Source of the DNA: Microscillaceae bacterium
GTDB lineage: Bacteria; Bacteroidota; Bacteroidia; Cytophagales; Microscillaceae
Length of the DNA: 64,000 nucleotides
Assembly: GCA_011390205.1 (NCBI GenBank)
Contig: JAABSX010000006.1
Location: forward strand, 62,001 to 126,000
Direction: 5' to 3'
Shown here: positions 14,942-40,724 of the stretch, in pieces
How the letters are laid out: every line of letters begins with the position of its first letter
Numbering within the stretch: position 1 is the first letter of the stretch
Translations under genes and position numbers: made by a program
Notes under the pieces: generated by a model
What the model was told of the DNA's origin: nothing
Database searches by the model: none
Seen by the model: the letters and a program-made list of their open reading frames with translations, nothing else

Positions 14942-17900
14942 ATGCATAAAAATTATCAATTATTACAGATTTTATTCTCTATTTGTATTGCATCACTCAT
15001 AGGGCTAGGCTCAGTAAGAGCCCAAGGAGATGACTGTGCAGCAGCGACCACTGTCACATCCAACTCCGTAGGCCCCGCCTCTTTAGGAACTGAGACAGGC
15101 TTTTCAGGATTTAGCACGGGCTGTGCTGCCGTAGTAGGTGGGCAACGAGATAGTTGGCGCACTTTCACCGTCAATACACCTCAGCTTGTACGCATAGAGT
15201 TTACCCACTTAGATGCGGGAACAGACAACATTGCCTTAGCAGCTTGGAGTGGCACTTGCGGCACACTTACCAACCTAGGTTGTGTCAATACAGTAGGGCC
15301 GGGACTTGGCAACACCGAAGCCATTACCTTCAATGCTGTGGCAGGCATTACCTACTATATTCAAGTAGTAAATATGACCAACAATGCTGCCGTAGTAGGC
15401 TCACTGAGCGTCTCTAATCAGTTTCAAATCAACGCTACCAACATCGCCGTAGGCTCTTGTGGCATGCCCTTTAACATCACTGGCGGGCAGACACCTTTGC
15501 TCACCTCAGCACCTTGTTTTGTTCCTGCAGGTACTACTACCGAGCGTTGGGTCAAGTTTATAGCCACTGCCACCACCCAAGTGAGGGCACGCTATACCAA
15601 TACTGATGAAGATGCCAACATCCTTGCCTATAATTCTGACGGAAACCCCATACTCACCGCCTGCGGAAATGCAGCAATAGGAATAGGCACAGAAGAGGTT
15701 CGCTTTGCTGTCACGGCGGGGCAAGAATACTATCTACGCTTGATGAACCCCAACAACCCAAACGCCGTTGCAGGCACTATTTGCCTAGAAAACATAGCCC
15801 CAGAAACTCGAACCAACGCCCTTTCAGTACCTTCATTGGGCTGCACAGACAACTTCTATGTTTTTGGAACTGGATCACCTGACGCAACAAGCTGCCTCGG
15901 TGCAGGCGCAGACCGAGATGGTTGGGCAAGATTTACAGCTTCTGTTACAGGAACTTATACTGTAAGTTATTTCAATGAAAATCAAAATGCTGGGATTGCC
16001 ATTTACGACAATGCAGGCATAGCTATCGGAGGAGCTTGCGCTGATGGAGTAATAGGTACTGGTACAGAGGAGGTTACTTTTGCAGCCACAGTAGGAGATA
16101 CATACTTTATCAGGGTGAGTAATATGAGTAATACCAACTTGATGAATGGAACACTTTGTGTCTATCCTAACTCATCTATCGCGACTACTGTCAATACACC
16201 TGGTTGTAACTCCGAACTTGTCATAGACTTAAGTGATGGAGTACTTGACTGTGGCATTGGTTTCACAATACCTGTGGGTACTCAGGATGCTGTAACCTAT
16301 CCTACAAGTTGCTCTCCTACTGGAACAGCTTTCCGTGAGGGATGGGCATCCTTCATAGCACCTTTCACAGGGCCAATTACTGTTCAGTACAATAACCTCA
16401 GCCCTCTAGATGCGAGCATCGTCATCACCCGTGACAACGGAGCTGACTGCACCAACGGCACACTTAACCAGTGCGCCAATGCTGTAGCTGGCTTCGGTAC
16501 AGAATCTGCCACCATCAATGCCGTAGGTGGTGTAAAATATTACATCAGAATCGTAAATACTACCACAAACACCCAACCCATGCCTGGGGAGCTATGTGTT
16601 ACTACGGGCAGCCCCCCCAATGCAGATTTGTGCAGCAATGCCCAGCCTGTAAATATCGGCACTTGTGGTTATCAGTTTGATATCCCTGCGGCGGCATTCA
16701 ACAACCAAAATGTAGCCCTCCCTGCGGGTTGCCCCGTAACGGTGTTTAGAGATGCTTGGGTATCTTTCCCAGTGGTAGCTTCTCAGACATTCACCGTCCG
16801 CTACAATAGCCTCGAAAGTGATGCCGCACTAGCCCTCTACCAAGGGAATTGCTCCAGTCTGACTCCCTTGGCTTGTGCCAATAGTGTAAATGACATAGGG
16901 CAAGAGGAACTTACTTTTTCACCTAATTTTACAGGCACTATCTATCTCAGAGTCATGAAAATAGACAATGCCGACCCCATGACGGGTACACTGTGCATTA
17001 GTGAGATGGTGGCACGTGATGCCTGTGCAGAGGCACTTAGTTCACCTACCTACTTACAGACGGGTGATTGTGATGTTGATTTTAATGTAGCAAGTACTTT
17101 TGCTAGTACACCTGGTGACTTAGACTGTACTCCTGAGAGTCCGGATGCATGGGTGGCTTACACAGCAGATTTCACGGGTCAGCTACGAGTAGATTATACA
17201 GCTATCAATGGAGAGAGACCAGCTCTTGCTGTTTTTGAGCAAACCCCTAGTTTCGTCTGCGGAGATGCACCAGCCGTAGTTGAGTGTGGTAGTGCAACTG
17301 TACCTCCTGATTTTGTTACAGTCAATGTCCCCGTTACTACTGGCAGGACTTACCTCATTAAGATTGTGAGTGTAGATGGCACTACCATGACAGGAAAGAT
17401 ATGCCTCTACAATACAAGCCTGGCAGCGGCCGATGATTTCTTCAATGCACCCACTTATGTGGAAGGTACTAATTGTGGAGAACAGTTCAATATTTCTCCA
17501 ACCTTCGGAAGCAGCACAGGAAATGCCCCTGGTGTAACCGAAGCAATTAGCTGTGCCCCTGGGCAGCCTTCCATTCTTGATGGTTGGGCAAAGTTTATCC
17601 CTGCAGCCACTGGAGATGTGGTCATAGAATACGATAACCGTGTAAATGACCCTGAGCAAGCAAATGACGTGGCATTGCTAGTCTATGAAGGTAGCACTGT
17701 TACTACTGCCCCTGCTACAGGATTTGTAGAGGATATCTACACTGCCATCACTACCTCACTTGCATTGAATACAACCTACACGGGTGTCGGTATAGACAAT
17801 ACAGGGCTGGACGCTGATAGCCCAGGAACAGACCACGATAACTCATCTGCATTCGGTACTTTTTCAGGAGATGCCATTGCTAGATTTACACTAGCTGCTC

Positions 17901-20900
17901 CCACCAATATCACGATTTCATTCCTCTCCAATTCTCCAACACAAGTACCCATGGTAGTGTATGATGATGATGGTTCTTTCGGTACTCCTTTCCAGACCAC
18001 ATCACTTAGCAATGTAGCTGAAAACACGGGTGTATATTCACTTCCTGCGGGTAATTACATCATCCACATCCTGAATCCACTTGTTGTACCTATTACAGGG
18101 GCATCTTTGACAGTTTATTCAGGGATTACCCAAGTCGCTTGCATCAATGCCCTGAGCGACCAATTAGGCATAGAGCGGCTTACATTGAGTGCTACGGCAG
18201 GTACTACCTATTATGTGCGAGTGGCAAACATAGAAGATGGAACTAGAATCACAAACGGTACACTTTGTATTAGAGATGCCGTAGTGCCTCAGGGTGATTT
18301 ATGCGATGACCCCATTACTACTACCCCCCCAGGCTCTTTCTGTGATTATGACTTTAACTTAGATGCAGGCTTTGTGAACGATCAGCCCATTCCTGACCCA
18401 ATATGTATGGGTAGTTATAATCTTTATAAGGATGGTTGGCTTAGTTTTACAGCTACATTGAATAGAACCACTATCCAGTACCAAAGCCCCTCTACTGACA
18501 ATGTGTCCATGATAGCCGTTTATAGAGGAGGCTGTGCTACTCCGTTTTTGATAGGATGTACTGACCCAGGAGCAGCCTTAGAGCCCAATAGAGTACGTAC
18601 ACTTCGTGTAAATACCATTCCAGGCTTAGAATACAAAGTCAGGATTATGAGTGTGGGACTGAGTGCCACTCCTACGGCTGCAGAAGAAAACATGAATGGA
18701 AAAGTATGTATCTTTAATACTGTGGAAAGTGATGTATGTAATGACAATGACCTCGTAACCCTCAATGTGAATGACTGTAATGTGAGATTTGATGTGCCTG
18801 CAGCCTTTACCCTCTCAGGTGCAAATTTACGTAACTTTGACAGTGGCACACTCCCTTTACTTGTTACCACAGGCTCACTTCCTCAAAATATAGAATCTAG
18901 CTGTGAAACAGAAAGTCCCTTCACGGCTACTGATACCAACGTACAGCCCATTGTAGGTGAATCAAGAGATGCTTGGGTAAGGATGAATGGCTCAGGGGGA
19001 GCCGTTACGCTTACCTACCAAAACAATGAAGCAGGTACACTTGCCAATGATGGCAGCAATCCTTCTATCGTGGTTTATACTGCACTAGAGGATGTAGGCC
19101 CCGTAAACTGTGGTGTAGGAGGGAATGGAGCAGGCAATCTACTTAACCAATATGCTTGTGCCAATAATTTTAATGTCATCGGCAAACAAACCGAGTCTGT
19201 TACCTTCATCGCCAATGCAGGGCAGAGATACATCATCCGAATCATAGATATGAATGGAGGCAACACGAATGGAATGACAGGCACACTCTGTATCTCTGAT
19301 GGTGCTCAAAATTACGATGATTGTGCTGATGCAAGAGAGATAGAAATAGGTGAATGTAGTGTGCCACTCAATGTGTTGCAGGGCCGCAATACCTGCTATG
19401 TGCCCGGCACCAACGCCGCAAATTATCCAGACATTACCACTGCACCACTTTGTGATATCACTGGCTTAGGTGCTGATGGCTGTGATGGTGGTACAAGTGA
19501 TGCTTGGGCTACCTTTACGGTAGATAAGTCTTTACTTCCAGGAAATACACTACCTCAGACGAATGGCACTCAAACGGATGTAACCATAGAATATGACAAC
19601 CGAAATTACACTTTTGATGTGGCAGCGGATGTAGCACTTTTGGTATATCGTGTTACAGATTGTGCTGATGGAGCTACCTTCACACTGATAGGATGTGCAG
19701 ATGAATTAGGGTCTGGCATAGAAGGGGTAGAAAAAGTGCTTATCCCCAATGTAAGCGATTTAGATACTTACCATGTCAGAGTAATCAACAGAACCAGTGG
19801 GCAAAGCCTTTTTGGGAAAGTATGTATTTACTACGGCACAGACATCGCCGACGAAAACTGCCCCACTACACAAAGCTATGGGGAACTGAGTGGTGAGTTT
19901 AGAAGCTTTACCGTAGGCAACACTGCTCCTTGGAGAAATACAAGCAATCCTCAAAGCTCTATCATAGACCCTGCTTGTGTAGTACCTGGGGGCAGTAATC
20001 CTAGAACACGTGGCACAGACCCTATCCGTGCGCATGGCTGGGTAAACTTTACTGTGCCTGTGAGTGGGCTACCTGTGGGAGATCCTAGTAGGACTACGGC
20101 CGTAACAGTGCAATATGACAATAGTGGATTCTCATCTGGAGGTAGTTTGCAAAATGCTGCCCTCGCAGTCTATACCGTCAATAATGCAGACCCTGCTACT
20201 GCATTACTTAACTGTGAAGAAGCAGCTGCTACAGGTGATAACAAACTACTACTCATAGACTGTGTAGATACTGTCTTTGAAGGAGCGGAATCCGTTACCA
20301 TCGGTGTAGAAGAGGGACGTACCTACTATGTGAGGGTGATGAACATTGCCAACTTGGCTACTCCTGGTGTAATGCCTGGTCGTATTCGTATTTTTCCTTA
20401 TGCTCCCTGCCAAGTGGGGGATGAGCTCGTGGTAGATGGAGGCTTTGAAGGATGGCCTGGCATAGACCCAGGTGTGGATGGTATAGCGAATAACACAGAC
20501 CTCGCTGGTTATAACAGACAACTGGATGACGTAATGGTAACTACTTTCCTCACTACGACCTCAGCTTACCCTAACAAACTAGATGGCAATGCCAAGTTTG
20601 CGACTGACTATGGATTCGTAAGAGATCGCAATGGTGGCAACAACAGTGGAAACCTACCCAATAATAGGAGTATCACAGATAGTACAGCTACCTATGCTAG
20701 GTTTATAGAAAACAGAGGGGAGCTAGGCCCAGAGGGTAGATACGTCGTGAAGCAGAGCCCTTGGACAGTCAAAGGAGATTGGTTCTCTTTTGGAAATGGA
20801 TACTCAGGTTATGGAGGACGTACGGGCGGTGGTGTGCCTGTAGCAAGTTACTGTCTCACTGGTGGGGGAGGCTTTGAAGGAGAACCTTGTGTAGAAATCA

Positions 20901-22252
20901 CACGTAACTTCGCCAATGGCCCAGCGACTACTGTGGGTGAATACAACATAGGCATTGATAGACCAAGCCCTTTTCCTTATACATCAGATGCCAATTTTAT
21001 GATTGTAAACGGCTCTTATGACCCTGGCTCAGGGCTTCCCCCAGGGAAGGTATGGTGTCAGACTGTACGTAGAGATGGTGGAACAGTAGGCTACTATGTA
21101 TTTACGATATGGGTGCAAAACATGATCAGTGCAGGTCGTAACCTAGACGTGCCTCAGTTACGCCTCACTGTATGTGATATGCAAGACCCCATTACGGGTG
21201 ATATTCCCTTATCAACGAATCCCGCAAATCTACTTGTGCAGGCAAGTGACAACCCTGCTGGCATCTCTTCTATATTGCCAGGCATTAGTATATTTGACCC
21301 CACAGTCAAGCCATATACTATACACTCTCCTGCACCTCCTACTGACAGGCTAAAAGCACCCAGAGTAGATTTTTCTTATGGAGCGGCTGCACCTTGTAAT
21401 ACGCCTTCAGAGGCACGTGATGCACGAATTAAAATACTTGGTTCTTCCTTCTTGATAGACGAAAGGCCAGATGCTTGGCAAGTGATACGTTGTATCTATC
21501 GTGCCCCTGCGGGCATAGAGGCGATGAATATCTGTATAGAAAACTTATCCCTTACTAAGAATGGAAATGACTTTGCTGTAGATGACATTTCATTTAGAGA
21601 GTGTTTAAACCCAGATACCGAAGCCTTTGACCGTCTGCTGCGTGGAGACCCTTGCGAGCTGGCAGATACTCCCAATGCATTAAACATTCCACTAGGTGTA
21701 ACCATGCTTGATTTTAGTGGCCGTTTATTGGGTGATAAAGTGCTGCTTAACTGGATTACACTCAGAGAAAACAATGCAGCTTATTTTGAGGTGCAGCGCA
21801 GCCTTGATGGAGCTAACTTTAGCCCTATCGGTGAAGTGCTTGCCAAAGGAAGCGTAACTACACTGAATGACTATAATTTTACAGACATTCAGCTCCCCAA
21901 AGGGATAGAACACATCTATTACAGATTAAAAATCTACAATGAAGATGGCACTTCTAAAATGGGACCTCTGGTGCGTGTCAATATCTCTGGCTTAGATACC
22001 TTTGATTTACAGATTATTCCTAACCCTATCACACAAGGTGATAATGTAACACTCCGCTTCAATGTGGCAGCAGGAAAATCTGGACTTATCGTAGCGGATA
22101 TGATGGGCAATGTACTTCAGCAGAGCATCATCGAAACCATTAATGGAATCAATGATGTAACACTTAACACAAGCAAACTGCCTTCTGGAGTGTATATCGT
22201 TCAAGTAAGTCAAGATGGCAGAAAAGTAGCCAAAAGGCTCGTAGTATATTAA
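14942..22252 (+). CDS. Giant secreted repeat protein with T9SS type A sorting domain
   Basis: 2436-residue surface or secreted protein. A signal peptide (1 to about 28, ending SVRAQ) is followed by about 11 tandem units of 120-180 residues (about 30-1820). Each unit has the plan: Cys-rich start, AW-F/V-T-F, V-x-Y-x-N, LA-x-Y, CAN-x-x-G-x-E, TYYIRV-x-N and an M-x-GTLCI end. Two conserved Cys per unit suggest disulfides. A non-repeat region follows (about 1820-2250) beginning VVDGGFEGWPG. Next comes a fibronectin-like segment (about 2260-2355: NWITLRENNAAYFEVQRS). The last 75 residues are the T9SS type A domain (PSGVYIVQVSQDGRKVAKRL). The units resemble pre-peptidase C-terminal/jelly-roll modules, but no catalytic domain is seen. 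Likely adhesin or matrix protein; the function is inferred. Base composition is richer in GC than the flanking gaps. Confidence 0.9.
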   Translation: MHKNYQLLQILFSICIASLIGLGSVRAQGDDCAAATTVTSNSVGPASLGTETGFSGFSTGCAAVVGGQRDSWRTFTVNTPQLVRIEFTHLDAGTDNIALAAWSGTCGTLTNLGCVNTVGPGLGNTEAITFNAVAGITYYIQVVNMTNNAAVVGSLSVSNQFQINATNIAVGSCGMPFNITGGQTPLLTSAPCFVPAGTTTERWVKFIATATTQVRARYTNTDEDANILAYNSDGNPILTACGNAAIGIGTEEVRFAVTAGQEYYLRLMNPNNPNAVAGTICLENIAPETRTNALSVPSLGCTDNFYVFGTGSPDATSCLGAGADRDGWARFTASVTGTYTVSYFNENQNAGIAIYDNAGIAIGGACADGVIGTGTEEVTFAATVGDTYFIRVSNMSNTNLMNGTLCVYPNSSIATTVNTPGCNSELVIDLSDGVLDCGIGFTIPVGTQDAVTYPTSCSPTGTAFREGWASFIAPFTGPITVQYNNLSPLDASIVITRDNGADCTNGTLNQCANAVAGFGTESATINAVGGVKYYIRIVNTTTNTQPMPGELCVTTGSPPNADLCSNAQPVNIGTCGYQFDIPAAAFNNQNVALPAGCPVTVFRDAWVSFPVVASQTFTVRYNSLESDAALALYQGNCSSLTPLACANSVNDIGQEELTFSPNFTGTIYLRVMKIDNADPMTGTLCISEMVARDACAEALSSPTYLQTGDCDVDFNVASTFASTPGDLDCTPESPDAWVAYTADFTGQLRVDYTAINGERPALAVFEQTPSFVCGDAPAVVECGSATVPPDFVTVNVPVTTGRTYLIKIVSVDGTTMTGKICLYNTSLAAADDFFNAPTYVEGTNCGEQFNISPTFGSSTGNAPGVTEAISCAPGQPSILDGWAKFIPAATGDVVIEYDNRVNDPEQANDVALLVYEGSTVTTAPATGFVEDIYTAITTSLALNTTYTGVGIDNTGLDADSPGTDHDNSSAFGTFSGDAIARFTLAAPTNITISFLSNSPTQVPMVVYDDDGSFGTPFQTTSLSNVAENTGVYSLPAGNYIIHILNPLVVPITGASLTVYSGITQVACINALSDQLGIERLTLSATAGTTYYVRVANIEDGTRITNGTLCIRDAVVPQGDLCDDPITTTPPGSFCDYDFNLDAGFVNDQPIPDPICMGSYNLYKDGWLSFTATLNRTTIQYQSPSTDNVSMIAVYRGGCATPFLIGCTDPGAALEPNRVRTLRVNTIPGLEYKVRIMSVGLSATPTAAEENMNGKVCIFNTVESDVCNDNDLVTLNVNDCNVRFDVPAAFTLSGANLRNFDSGTLPLLVTTGSLPQNIESSCETESPFTATDTNVQPIVGESRDAWVRMNGSGGAVTLTYQNNEAGTLANDGSNPSIVVYTALEDVGPVNCGVGGNGAGNLLNQYACANNFNVIGKQTESVTFIANAGQRYIIRIIDMNGGNTNGMTGTLCISDGAQNYDDCADAREIEIGECSVPLNVLQGRNTCYVPGTNAANYPDITTAPLCDITGLGADGCDGGTSDAWATFTVDKSLLPGNTLPQTNGTQTDVTIEYDNRNYTFDVAADVALLVYRVTDCADGATFTLIGCADELGSGIEGVEKVLIPNVSDLDTYHVRVINRTSGQSLFGKVCIYYGTDIADENCPTTQSYGELSGEFRSFTVGNTAPWRNTSNPQSSIIDPACVVPGGSNPRTRGTDPIRAHGWVNFTVPVSGLPVGDPSRTTAVTVQYDNSGFSSGGSLQNAALAVYTVNNADPATALLNCEEAAATGDNKLLLIDCVDTVFEGAESVTIGVEEGRTYYVRVMNIANLATPGVMPGRIRIFPYAPCQVGDELVVDGGFEGWPGIDPGVDGIANNTDLAGYNRQLDDVMVTTFLTTTSAYPNKLDGNAKFATDYGFVRDRNGGNNSGNLPNNRSITDSTATYARFIENRGELGPEGRYVVKQSPWTVKGDWFSFGNGYSGYGGRTGGGVPVASYCLTGGGGFEGEPCVEITRNFANGPATTVGEYNIGIDRPSPFPYTSDANFMIVNGSYDPGSGLPPGKVWCQTVRRDGGTVGYYVFTIWVQNMISAGRNLDVPQLRLTVCDMQDPITGDIPLSTNPANLLVQASDNPAGISSILPGISIFDPTVKPYTIHSPAPPTDRLKAPRVDFSYGAAAPCNTPSEARDARIKILGSSFLIDERPDAWQVIRCIYRAPAGIEAMNICIENLSLTKNGNDFAVDDISFRECLNPDTEAFDRLLRGDPCELADTPNALNIPLGVTMLDFSGRLLGDKVLLNWITLRENNAAYFEVQRSLDGANFSPIGEVLAKGSVTTLNDYNFTDIQLPKGIEHIYYRLKIYNEDGTSKMGPLVRVNISGLDTFDLQIIPNPITQGDNVTLRFNVAAGKSGLIVADMMGNVLQQSIIETINGINDVTLNTSKLPSGVYIVQVSQDGRKVAKRLVVY

Positions 22253-32368: not shown

Positions 32369-33214
32369 TTAATAAGTCATCAATACATCTCTGACATTTT
32401 CCATGAGCCACATCGGGGTAGAGGTAGCCCCACAGATGCCTATGGTGTCATTTTCTTTAAACCAAGCCTTGTCTAAATCTTCGGCATTGGAGATAAAATA
32501 AGTATGCTCGTTTACATCCTTACAGACATTGTATAAGACTTTCCCGTTAGAAGACTTTGTGCCAGCCACGAATATAATCTTGTCAAACCTTTGAGCAAAG
32601 TGCCGAAGTTCTTTGTCTCTGTTAGACACTTGCCTACAAATGGTGTCATTGGCATTGACTTCTATGCCCTCATTTTCTATGATTTGTTTGATTTCGTAAA
32701 ATTTATCGGTGCTTTTGGTAGTTTGGCTGTAGAGTGTCAGGTTTTTGGGCAGTGATTTCAGGTCAAGTTCGCTGATATCTTGGAATACCACTGCTTCATT
32801 GTTTGTCTGCCCGAGTAGTCCCTTTACTTCAGCATGTCCGTGTTTTCCGAATATATAAATAGGCTCTTTCTTATCGTGTGAGTTTTTGATTCGGTTTTGG
32901 AGCTTAAGTACTACAGGGCAAGAAGCGTCTATCAGTTCTAGGTTGTTATTGAGGGCGGTTTCATAGGTAGATGGAGGCTCTCCGTGTGCTCTGATGAGCA
33001 CTTTTTCGTTATGTAAGGTGGCAAGTTCATCATAAGAGATAATCTTTAGCCCTTTAGCTTCTAGGCGTTTGACTTCCTCATCATTATGGACAATATCCCC
33101 CAAACAATACAAATAGGATTGCTCTTGTAGGATATCTTCTGCCATCTCAATGGCATAGACCACGCCGAAGCAAAAGCCTGAATTTTGATCGATATTTACT
33201 TGAAGATTTAGCAT
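32369..33214 (-). CDS. ispH: 4-hydroxy-3-methylbut-2-enyl diphosphate reductase IspH
   Basis: Last enzyme of the MEP pathway: 4Fe-4S reductase producing IPP and DMAPP. The three cluster cysteines are in SGFCFGVVYAIEMAE (Cys15), DASCPVVLKLQ, and DTICRQVSNRDKEL; GKHGHAEVKGLLGQ carries the conserved His and Glu region; IFVAGTKSSNGKVLYNVC and GICGATSTP follow. 281 aa, normal length. Monocistronic, with gaps on both sides. Confidence 0.96.
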   Translation of the reverse strand: MLNLQVNIDQNSGFCFGVVYAIEMAEDILQEQSYLYCLGDIVHNDEEVKRLEAKGLKIISYDELATLHNEKVLIRAHGEPPSTYETALNNNLELIDASCPVVLKLQNRIKNSHDKKEPIYIFGKHGHAEVKGLLGQTNNEAVVFQDISELDLKSLPKNLTLYSQTTKSTDKFYEIKQIIENEGIEVNANDTICRQVSNRDKELRHFAQRFDKIIFVAGTKSSNGKVLYNVCKDVNEHTYFISNAEDLDKAWFKENDTIGICGATSTPMWLMENVRDVLMTY

Positions 33215-33476: not shown

Positions 33477-33938
33477 TTACTTTGCTAGATAACTTTTTAA
33501 CATCTCAATTTGAGCAGGATTTGCCAATTTTTTTTCTAGTAGGTATCTGGCTATTTCGGGGCGCATGGCTTCGGGGACTTCTTTTTGGTTTATGTTTTCT
33601 ATAATCTGTTTTTGGTCTTCTTGAATATGTGCACTAAACCCCAAAATACTTGGCGTATTGGATTGAATAGAAAAACGCAAAAAGCGAATTTCTACACTTT
33701 CGGGCGCTTCACTGACAGCCTCCGCAAAGCGTGTGTTTGCTTTGCGCACAAGGTCTAGTTTTTCTAAAGGATTCCAGGCATCCCTTGCTTGTAAGGCAAG
33801 CCCTGCTGCTTGGTATGCCCAGTAAAGAGGGTTTTCGGCTTGATTTTCTATGCTTTTGAGTGCTTTCAAAAACATCTGTGCCTGTGGGTAGCCCTCACTT
33901 GCGGCAGCGAACAGATCACGTATTTCCTCAATTTCCAA
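33477..33938 (-). CDS. TPR-like conserved hypothetical protein
   Basis: 153-residue, helix-rich soluble protein without signal peptide. It carries the segment KLDLVRKANTRFAEAVSEAP followed by SVEIRFLRFSIQSNTPSILG and a C-terminal IQEDQKQIIENI. I associate this pattern with a Bacteroidetes conserved family of unknown function with a tetratricopeptide-like N-terminal part. The start is TTG at 33938, only 2 nt after the stop of the nucleotidyltransferase gene; there is no ATG candidate. The tight junction argues for translational coupling. The function is not known. Confidence 0.65.
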   Translation of the reverse strand: MEIEEIRDLFAAASEGYPQAQMFLKALKSIENQAENPLYWAYQAAGLALQARDAWNPLEKLDLVRKANTRFAEAVSEAPESVEIRFLRFSIQSNTPSILGFSAHIQEDQKQIIENINQKEVPEAMRPEIARYLLEKKLANPAQIEMLKSYLAK

Positions 33939-33940
33939 GT

Positions 33941-34942
33941 TTATATGTTGTGTTTAAAGGTTTGATAAAATTCTAAAATATCTTTTTGTATTTGGGCCTC
34001 AGTATTTCTGAGTATATAATGCTTAAAGTTAGTGGCTTGATTTTTAAAACCCACTATAAAAGCGCCTAAATTTTTAGTGTTGAGCTCAGGGAGAAGGTTT
34101 AAAACAAGGTTTCCATTGAATTTTTGATGGATTTCTTTTGTGATTCGTTCTTTTTCTTGCTCTTCTATCATCCAATTAATTAGATTGGATTCAGAAAAAT
34201 AAATGTCTATCAGAGGAAGATACACCTCTTTGTTGCGATGAAAAGGGTATTCTCTTTGAATTTGTTTGTCTTCTAGGTAGTCAATGAATGCCTGCATGGT
34301 GGGGCGTTCTCGGATTCGTTTAAGTGTATTGGGTGCGGGCTGAAGATAGGGGCTAGATGTGAAATAAGGGCTAGAAAGCAGCCATTCAAACATATCTTCC
34401 AGACCTTCAAAGCCCTGCTGCCAAGTGCTGTATTTTAAACCTATGAATGCAATTATCTTCTTGAAGTCTCGGCTTATGATTTTTTCTTTCTTGTAATTTC
34501 CTTCCGAATGTCGATACACATAGCTTAGCCCATCTTGCCCATATTTGAGATTAAAGCGGTGAAATATTTTCCCCAAAAGATTTCCTAAATCATTGAAAGA
34601 CAGGTAATGATACATTATGTCTAAATTTTCTGCTGAGGTCTCAAAAAAATCAACTTGTAGCCCTTCGTAGGAGATGGATAAAATATTTCCCACTGATTTG
34701 AAATCTTTGATGTGAAGCTCTTGTATGATTGCTTGCTTGAATGCTGACCAGCCAAAAGCCCCGTTTTTTTGTAGGGAGACAAGCAGGTCTAAGTCTCCAA
34801 AATCTGCTTTTTGATGATAATAACGAGGGATTCGGTAAGCATCTGTACCTATTTTTTGGCTGAGGTACTCACTCACTTTTTGTTCTATCTGGATGTATTT
34901 TTTTCTTTCTACTCTACCTAAGTTAAATAATTTGCCTCCCAT
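33941..34942 (-). CDS. Pol-beta-superfamily nucleotidyltransferase-like protein
   Basis: 333-residue soluble protein. From ATG 34942 it begins MGGKLFNLGRVERKKY and reaches the nucleotidyltransferase signature DFGDLDLLVS (Asp50, Asp52), with a third acidic residue in LQVDFFE (Asp98), a complete Asp triad as in active polymerase-beta-fold enzymes. Later conserved-looking segments are DLGNLLGKIFHRF, YGQDGLSYVYR and KRIRERPTMQAFIDYLE. From memory, proteins with this MGG-start and segment order occur in large phages and some eukaryotes, mostly unannotated; this was not checked. Substrate unknown. An ATG at 35014 would add 24 residues without family character. Cotranscribed with the TPR-like gene; a TerY-like gene is divergent. 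Confidence 0.72.
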   Translation of the reverse strand: MGGKLFNLGRVERKKYIQIEQKVSEYLSQKIGTDAYRIPRYYHQKADFGDLDLLVSLQKNGAFGWSAFKQAIIQELHIKDFKSVGNILSISYEGLQVDFFETSAENLDIMYHYLSFNDLGNLLGKIFHRFNLKYGQDGLSYVYRHSEGNYKKEKIISRDFKKIIAFIGLKYSTWQQGFEGLEDMFEWLLSSPYFTSSPYLQPAPNTLKRIRERPTMQAFIDYLEDKQIQREYPFHRNKEVYLPLIDIYFSESNLINWMIEEQEKERITKEIHQKFNGNLVLNLLPELNTKNLGAFIVGFKNQATNFKHYILRNTEAQIQKDILEFYQTFKHNI

Positions 34943-35137
34943 ATTGTATATAATCGTTTTTTGCTGCGGTATTTTGTCTTGCTTTTTTTTGGATAATGAA
35001 GAAAGATAAGCCAAATATTGCCAAAATAAAAAATTGAAATTGTTAAAAAATAAGGATAAATTAAAACTTTATCGATTACTTTTAGGTAGTTTTCAAGTAA
35101 AGAAACCAAATAAATAGGAATCCAAACTCAGATAAAT

Positions 35138-35812
35138 ATGGCATTTGATGATTTTGTAGCAGAAACCCCTGATAATTTTGAGCAAAAATGCTTGTGTGTC
35201 CTTGTGCTAGATGTTTCTGGCTCAATGACTGGCGAGCGTATCAAAGAATTAAACCGAGGCTTAGATGAGTTTCACAGGCAAGTCCGCAATGATGAAATTG
35301 CTTCTCAGAGATTAGAAGTCTGTATCATCGCATTTAATTCTAACATCTCTTGTATTCAAGAACCTGCCTTGATTGATAAATTTGTGATGCCCATCTTGAA
35401 GGCAAGGGGCACAACCAAACTCGTGGATGCAGTCAGGGCAGGCATAGACAAGACCGAAGCTCGCAAACGCTGGTACAAAGAAACAGGACAATCTTATTAC
35501 CGTCCTTTTGTGATTTTGATTACGGATGGCACCCCTGACTCTGACCAAGACGTGGACGGGCTCTCGATGGAAGTTAATGAGGGAGTCAATGATAAACGTT
35601 TTATGTTTTTCCCGATAGGTGTCCAAGATGCCAATTTGGGGGTTCTCAAAGAAATAGCTCACCCTTCTACACCTCCTATGATGCTCAAAGGCTTGAATTT
35701 TATTGCTTTTTTTCAGTGGCTTAGCAATAGCATAGGCATCATCACCAAATCCAATGAAGGTGATAAAGTAAACTTCCCTGATGCTTCAGGTTGGGGGCAA
35801 ATGGAAATATAA
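35138..35812 (+). CDS. TerY-like von Willebrand factor A (vWA) protein
   Basis: 224-residue cytoplasmic vWA protein. MIDAS site complete: DVSGSMTGER near residues 26-35, the Thr in ARGTTKLVDAV, and ITDGTPDSDQD. The family name follows from the TerY-type pattern (GLDEFHRQVRND, FFPIGVQDANL, LKGLNFIAFFQWLSNSI). TerY proteins usually occur with a PP2C phosphatase and a kinase (the TerY-P triad) or with tellurium-resistance genes; neither is present here. The divergent neighbour is the nucleotidyltransferase, 195 nt away. A bidirectional terminator separates it from rfbB. Confidence 0.85.
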   Translation: MAFDDFVAETPDNFEQKCLCVLVLDVSGSMTGERIKELNRGLDEFHRQVRNDEIASQRLEVCIIAFNSNISCIQEPALIDKFVMPILKARGTTKLVDAVRAGIDKTEARKRWYKETGQSYYRPFVILITDGTPDSDQDVDGLSMEVNEGVNDKRFMFFPIGVQDANLGVLKEIAHPSTPPMMLKGLNFIAFFQWLSNSIGIITKSNEGDKVNFPDASGWGQMEI

Positions 35813-39454: not shown

Positions 39455-40039
39455 ATGTCCACACGCACTAAAATATCTGTAGAAGAATACCTCGAGCGAG
39501 AGGCAAAAGCAGAGTATAAGAGCGAATACCATGGTGGCGAAGTCCTAGCAATGGCAGTAGCATCAGAAAAACACAACACAATTGTAAGCAATTTGATATT
39601 CCTAATCAACCGCTGTATCTGGGACAAAGATTGTAAAGTATATGCCAATGACTTATTGCTAAAACTTGAAAAGTGCGATAAATATGTCTATCCCGATGTA
39701 GTGTTGGTCTGTGGGGAGGTACAGCTAGAGCAGCACAAAGGGATAGATGCCTTACTCAACCCGATGGTGGTGATAGAAGTGCTTTCTGAAAGTACCCAAG
39801 GCTATGATGGCAATGAAAAAATGCAGTGCTACTTTGAATTGACAAGCCTCCAACAATACATATTAATCGATAGCAAAAAAATGTATATTCAAGATTACCA
39901 AAAAACCAACTCAGAGGATTGGCTCATGAAAATCGTCAAAAATGAGCAAGACAAAATTAAGATTCAAGACTGTGAAATCAGCTTAGAAGATATTTATAGG
40001 AAAGTGGGGTTTGAGGTGAAGGGGGGAGAAAAGTCCTAA
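39455..40039 (+). CDS. Uma2 family protein (DUF820, PD-(D/E)XK endonuclease-like)
   Basis: 194-residue soluble protein of a family abundant in Cyanobacteria and Bacteroidetes, predicted to have a restriction-endonuclease fold. Visible motifs: SVEEYLEREAKAEYKSEYHGG at the N terminus; the metal-site Asp in YPDVVLVCG; Glu in PMVVIEVLSEST; and YILIDSKK. The biological role is unresolved; links to mobile DNA are only suggested. Its last 25 codons before GGEKS are repeated at 40869-40943 with synonymous changes only. Confidence 0.85.
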   Translation: MSTRTKISVEEYLEREAKAEYKSEYHGGEVLAMAVASEKHNTIVSNLIFLINRCIWDKDCKVYANDLLLKLEKCDKYVYPDVVLVCGEVQLEQHKGIDALLNPMVVIEVLSESTQGYDGNEKMQCYFELTSLQQYILIDSKKMYIQDYQKTNSEDWLMKIVKNEQDKIKIQDCEISLEDIYRKVGFEVKGGEKS

Positions 40040-40095
40040 TTACAGAAAATCAAACTTTTAGCCCCTTGGATTTTGTTACATCTAAAAAAAGAGGA

Positions 40096-40323
40096 ATGAT
40101 GAGCATAGAAAGCAAAAAACTAGATTTTATTCAATCTTTCTTATTACTTCAAGATATGGAAACTGTCTTGGTGTTAGAAAGAATTTTGAAAGAAGCCCTA
40201 ATGCAAGAGTGCACAGACAATGGTTTTGAAGTGGAAACATTCGTAAACGAAATCGAGAAGCGCAGAGAAATTTCAGGGCAAGTATCCGCACATAAAATAG
40301 ATCAACTTTTTAAAGATATATGA
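40096..40323 (+). CDS. Antitoxin of a VapBC-like pair
   Basis: 75 aa from ATG 40096 (ATG 40099 is equally possible); short, charged and helix-rich (SKKLDFIQSFLLLQDMETVLVLERIL, shortened here to its first 20: SKKLDFIQSFLLLQDMETVL). The stop overlaps the toxin start by 4 nt (ATGA), as is usual for these modules. The N terminus does not show a clear AbrB or RHH DNA-binding motif, so the antitoxin type is undefined. The call rests on context with the PIN gene. Similar short proteins accompany PIN toxins in Bacteroidetes and Cyanobacteria. Confidence 0.75.
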   Translation: MMSIESKKLDFIQSFLLLQDMETVLVLERILKEALMQECTDNGFEVETFVNEIEKRREISGQVSAHKIDQLFKDI

Positions 40324-40724
40324 ATCAGGCATTGATAGATACCAATATCATTTCTTATTATTTGTTTGGGGATTATCCAAATGTAGTCCAGAGCTTTGAT
40401 GCGTATATCCAACAATATGCTTTTGTGTCTATCGGGAGACCTACTATTTATGAAATTTTGAGTGGCTTAAAAGCTAAAAATGCTTCTCAAAAACTAAAGC
40501 AGTTTGAAGCTTTTATAATGCAACACAAAGTGCTTGAAATTACTGAAAAGAGTACACAAATATCTTCTGATATTTATGCCATTCTGCGAAATAAAGGGAT
40601 AATTATTGGTGAAAATGATATTTATCTGGCAGGAATAGCACTTGAAAATAATTTAGAACTCTGCACAAACAATAGCAAACATTTTAGGGACATTCCTAAC
40701 CTTAGACTTGTAAATTGGGTTTGA
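40320..40724 (+). CDS. PIN-domain ribonuclease toxin (VapC-like)
   Basis: 134-residue PIN nuclease. Acidic active site: Asp7 in LIDTNIISYYLFGD, Glu in PTIYEILSGL, Asp in GENDIYLAGIA, and the C-terminal TNNSKHFRDIPNLRLVNW, typical of VapC. All key residues are kept, so it is probably active and neutralised by the adjacent upstream gene. The pair lies inside a segment bracketed by a Uma2 gene and a Uma2 fragment. Confidence 0.9.
   Translation: MNQALIDTNIISYYLFGDYPNVVQSFDAYIQQYAFVSIGRPTIYEILSGLKAKNASQKLKQFEAFIMQHKVLEITEKSTQISSDIYAILRNKGIIIGENDIYLAGIALENNLELCTNNSKHFRDIPNLRLVNWV

Follow-up and report, generated by a model that had tools for sequence, protein, structure and literature searches.

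In the polymerases of family X, which include Pol beta, lambda and mu as well as bacterial PolX, the palm and thumb form the arrangement for adding a nucleotide opposite a template. Another member of the Pol-beta superfamily, RlaP (PF10127), occurs in large phages and in bacteria. In the part drawn on here, a survey of 224 jumbo phages treats RlaP, CCA-adding enzymes and Thg1 as the nucleotide-restoring enzymes of phages, predicts that RlaP restores nucleotides ahead of ligation and calls Thg1 only sporadic (PMC7824862). The nucleotidyltransferase family studied below goes unmentioned in that part of the survey; an earlier survey of RNA repair, which lay outside our search, may describe it. 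The TerY-P triad combines a TerY-like vWA protein with a PP2C phosphatase and a Ser/Thr kinase, in an arrangement described in PMC11090510.

We analysed a window of 64,000 nt from contig JAABSX010000006.1 of a Microscillaceae bacterium (order Cytophagales), in which an initial annotation had proposed that a nucleotidyltransferase, a small TPR-like gene and a TerY-like vWA gene might form a small stress or defence module. All three ORFs were found where they had been called, with the gaps given. The nucleotidyltransferase gene, supported by a match to phrog_24943, by alignment and by structure, occupies 33941..34942 on the minus strand (333 aa, ATG at 34942, stop at 33941-33943); a mechanical ORF call is longer (357 aa) and reaches up to a TTG at 35014. 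An MGG start is found in 111 of 115 copies of this nucleotidyltransferase, a count subject to a start choice that favoured MGG and to one alignment set having been filtered for this start. The starts given in GenBank, which are independent of that choice, agree, with MGG in DT01, ME3, X1 and BUCT-ZZ01 and MSG in Moby. The TPR-like gene (33477..33938, minus strand, 153 aa, TTG start) follows after 2 nt, and the vWA gene (35138..35812, plus strand, 224 aa) lies divergent at a distance of 195 nt. We read this locus as a chance arrangement containing a stand-alone, phage-derived enzyme with a family X core, most likely acting in template-guided repair of RNA 3′ ends, and place the probability of this reading at about 0.5.

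The adjacency of the three genes and the membership of the vWA family in TerY-P triads tied to restriction and anti-phage systems (PMC11090510) would suit a small stress or defence module. Among 57 Cytophagales genomes, however, the nucleotidyltransferase was present in 9, the vWA gene in 11 and the TPR-like gene in 26, in differing placements, and the three stood side by side in a single genome, that from which the window comes. The sole combination to recur was the nucleotidyltransferase with the TPR-like gene, in one other genus (G009), which counts in favour of a module; this pair excepted, the three genes lay apart in all other genomes examined. The neighbours of the nucleotidyltransferase changed from genus to genus, and clustering of neighbours gave each of the three genes a separate history. 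Owing to these differing placements and separate histories, the triple of unrelated genes is best read as a chance grouping. Furthermore, no anti-phage defence model in PADLOC 2.0 matched any of the three. A three-gene module was rejected on the separation of the genes in relatives, and we hold it to be very improbable. Taken as a system the locus is ordinary. What stands of the earlier interpretation is an enzyme of Pol-beta fold that has relatives in phages, together with a TerY-like vWA gene lacking its usual partners; the module joining them is not supported.

Each of the two flanking genes has its own context. The ORF of the TPR-like gene is real; its label came without a significant Pfam match. 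Beyond it in the window lies ispH/lytB (32369..33214, minus strand, PF02401, E 3e-86), and the two genes also adjoin in L074, L076 and L080 and, with a contig end in between, in L096. In Cytophagales the TPR-like gene is old and conserved, and it accompanies ispH in several genera, which argues against a dedicated partnership with the nucleotidyltransferase. The vWA protein matches Pfam VWA and phrog_28389 (E 2e-43) and carries a MIDAS motif (DVSGS at 25, TDG at 129). It is of the same family as the vWA component of the TerY-P triad, but differs from it in having neither PP2C nor kinase: its neighbours are an rfbB-like gene and the nucleotidyltransferase gene, and neither partner was found adjoining it, as the initial annotation had noted. 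Relatives in L059, L060, L062, L065 and L066 do adjoin PP2C_2 and/or Pkinase genes, with Pfam confirmation for L059, L062 and L065. Copies 78-85% identical to that of the window, in G004 and G009 (L058, L064), are also orphans and stand without the other two genes, a further point against the module. The source genome holds a second TerY-like vWA gene on contig C124 (L062:8591-11133), 62% identical to the window copy; the next gene encodes a protein kinase with fused WG repeats, unlike the zinc-ribbon kinase of the TerY-P triad. Elsewhere in the window, on the plus strand, 39455-40724 includes a 194-aa ORF, Uma2-like by eye, near a PIN-domain gene (40320-40724, PF01850), and 14942-22252 encodes a secreted protein of 2436 aa with a Por secretion tail and PPC domains.

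We then considered the nucleotidyltransferase itself. No Pfam model matched it, DNA_pol_B_palm and RlaP PF10127 included, and its only profile match was phrog_24943, to which residues 36-247 of the 357-aa ORF align at E 8e-30. Its structure was predicted with pLDDT 96.6 and pTM 0.90, and consists of a palm and thumb core (residues 4-185) and a helical C-terminal domain (about 188-333). In a fold search the best solved matches were Pol lambda, beta and mu and bacterial PolX (Z 11.8, 170 residues, rmsd 2.8); residues 8-185 of the model superpose on residues 383-575 of Pol lambda, that is, on its palm and thumb. Independently of the structure, the sequence profile also detects Pol lambda (E 4.7e-4, with the Asp triad aligned), a weak but direct similarity. 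The residues of the Asp triad named in the initial annotation, Asp50, Asp52 and Asp98, are in place within this fold and invariant in 90 of 90 homologues. The codons of Asp50 and Asp52 (GDxD), which would supply the first two metal-binding carboxylates, lie at 34787..34795 and that of the third, Asp98 (QxD), at 34649..34651, both on the minus strand. R10, K45, G49, Q96, G124, G138 and R213 are likewise invariant across the 90 members aligned. Structure prediction and fold search agree, and the predicted model confirms the 333-aa protein as a genuine Pol-beta-fold nucleotidyltransferase.

The core thus shares with family X the palm and thumb fold, the GDxD motif and the third Asp. As judged by eye, the NDLGN motif (residues 117-121; 34580..34594, minus strand), identified in the alignment, appears to correspond to the nascent-pair-binding (templating) helix of Pol beta. 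The protein also departs from family X in several respects. No 8-kDa lyase/HhH or PHP domain is visible, and the MGG start sets it apart. The GS motif which in family X holds the triphosphate ahead of the first Asp pair is not kept: other residues align with the GS of Pol lambda, and the corresponding columns 40-41 of the family alignment are variable. The helical C-terminal domain, predicted alone with pLDDT 96.9, gave no fold match above noise. A kinship of this domain with CCA-adding enzymes, suspected from the sequence, was dropped after that search.

The main competing explanation is a minimal DNA polymerase X acting in DNA gap repair, in place of the bacterial PolX that is absent from the lineage. 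It draws on the nearest solved structures, all of them DNA polymerases of the lambda, beta, mu and PolX types, on the action on DNA of those family X relatives whose function is known, on the annotation of phage copies as ‘DNA polymerase’ and on a classical DNA_pol_B_palm match in 0 of 19 relatives. The missing lyase and PHP domains, their place being taken by an unmatched helical C-terminal domain, and the altered triphosphate-holding motif speak against it, as do the cluster partners described below, which are RNA-repair genes, and the above-chance proximity of Thg1. We consider a DNA gap-repair polymerase rather unlikely. Less probable again is an enzyme whose target is a small molecule or a protein, of the antibiotic-modifying, MNT or AMPylator type: such enzymes do exist among Pol-beta folds and the gene stands alone in this organism, but the fold match spans both palm and thumb of a polymerase with a high Z, and the clusters contain genes for RNA repair.

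The association with phages suggested initially was borne out. Using tblastn, 28 phage records matched the nucleotidyltransferase, many of them from large phages, and at least 139 loci were found in viral contigs. In the scans of viral and genome contigs, a single-sequence query gave no match and an alignment query was successful. The phage family of the window protein, phrog_24943, is labelled just ‘DNA polymerase’ in PHROG; to it the present analysis adds the members in bacteria and the clusters with RNA-repair genes. Those bacterial copies are rare and patchy, with 11 among 291 genomes of the order Cytophagales, 2 in a Bacteroidota sample of 395 and 4 among 386 genomes of the phylum to which L105 belongs. 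In an unrooted tree, 20 bacterial sequences including the window protein form a supported clade (99/91) that spans Bacteroidota, Cyanobacteriota, Deinococcota, Acidobacteriota, Myxococcota, Planctomycetota and Pseudomonadota. Its sister is phage contig L140, and further copies from Pseudomonadota fall at various points among the viral sequences. On the simplest reading of this unrooted tree, the gene is phage-derived and later spread horizontally across phyla.

A mostly viral family with scattered bacterial copies could also have left a mobile phage remnant here, of no present function in this genome. The copy in G009 (L095:229-1110, contig C10) would fit such a fate, since its reading frame is interrupted close to the start and its ND..GN motif is gone, through decay or an assembly error. 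The window copy, however, is intact with all invariant residues, and the active site is kept throughout the supported clade of 20 copies across phyla, which indicates selection. A functionless remnant is in our view unlikely. Among the viral loci, L142-L159 show a conserved order: an HNH-like protein is encoded directly downstream of the nucleotidyltransferase, and a metallophosphoesterase-like gene lies upstream of it, in most cases at 1-2 kb. A metallophosphoesterase neighbour was detected by motif search only in 18 of 64 viral representatives, partly reflecting one phage clade.

Several nucleotidyltransferase loci contain genes of RNA repair. The fullest is a compact, single-strand cluster in a Prochloraceae cyanobacterium (L105:5428-11299), in which two RlaP genes in succession are followed by the genes for the nucleotidyltransferase, an AAA_33 kinase, Thg1 and an OB-domain-containing RNA ligase. 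An RNA ligase gene stands directly behind the nucleotidyltransferase in L109 (Blastocatellia, Acidobacteriota). Phage contig L140 has RlaP and Thg1 nearby, the latter 8 nt upstream, L166 has Thg1 with an Rnl2-type ligase, and L239, a Bacteroidota contig, has Thg1 with a metallophosphoesterase-like gene. In phage DT01, a gene for a CCA-adding enzyme lies directly downstream. Thg1, only sporadic in the jumbo-phage survey, occurs in 16 of 50 phage records and is nearer to the nucleotidyltransferase than expected from random placement (combined p 0.0012). The same was not observed with RNA ligase, found above cut-off in 29 of the 50 records at distances no better than chance (p 0.61). No RNA-repair gene was found beside the nucleotidyltransferase at the window locus, nor by most bacterial copies. 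Genes for tRNA are close in some phages (ME3, X1, LR756504 and Moby) but lie near the nucleotidyltransferase in just 15 of 80 viral loci; proximity to tRNA genes was therefore not taken as proof and was dropped as the chief evidence.

RlaP deserves separate consideration, as it shares with the nucleotidyltransferase the superfamily, the occurrence in large phages and bacteria and the clusters of L105 and L140. Since the two genes stand side by side there, the nucleotidyltransferase is not simply RlaP; moreover, the window protein has no PF10127 match and the true RlaP genes of its genome lie elsewhere. Within Cytophagales, RlaP was present in all 11 genomes with the nucleotidyltransferase and in 88 of 280 without (p 5e-6). 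Counted by genus the figures are 8/8 versus 43/107 (p 0.001), and inside the organism's own family 7/7 versus 5/8 (p 0.12). Ancestry accounts for part of this co-occurrence, as probably does genome size.

Taken together, the palm and thumb of family X and the partners in RNA repair suggest templated NMP addition at 3′ ends left by RNA breakage. In the repair we propose, the enzyme, distinct from RlaP and CCA-adding enzymes, would add one or a few NMPs to such an end, probably that of a tRNA cut by nucleases; a pairing strand would guide the addition, the helical C-terminal domain would hold the RNA, and an RNA ligase would then rejoin the ends. This would complement Thg1, which works at 5′ ends. 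In the window organism the enzyme may cooperate in trans with RNA-repair enzymes whose genes lie at other places in the genome, which has two RlaP-family genes. The RNA substrate, the templating, the part played by the C-terminal domain and the action in trans are what we infer from the fold and the gene neighbours.

A bolder version of this proposal is that the family is a hitherto unrecognised template-directed polymerase for RNA 3′-end repair, a family X core joined to a new helical RNA-binding domain, which giant phages would widely encode and from which complex bacteria would have received it. Distinct from both RlaP and CCA-adding enzymes, it would be to 3′ ends what Thg1, found in the same clusters, is to synthesis at 5′ ends. 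We advance this version tentatively, as a possibility with odds of being right well short of even. The family appears largely undescribed, its members being labelled merely ‘DNA polymerase’ or ‘hypothetical’. Were the proposal true, these labels could give way to a concrete function, and the enzymes by which giant phages and some bacteria restore nucleotides to broken RNA would be of three kinds, with RlaP and Thg1 as the other two. It would also hint at the way in which tRNAs cleaved by anti-phage nucleases are fully mended once nucleotides have been lost. The family merits specialist attention.

The two RlaP-family genes of the source genome are located at G000:C45:18516-19256 and G000:C47:3618-3974. 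The match on C47 (profile positions 15-139) is part of a 359-aa protein, of a type common to all 11 Cytophagales genomes that bear the nucleotidyltransferase.
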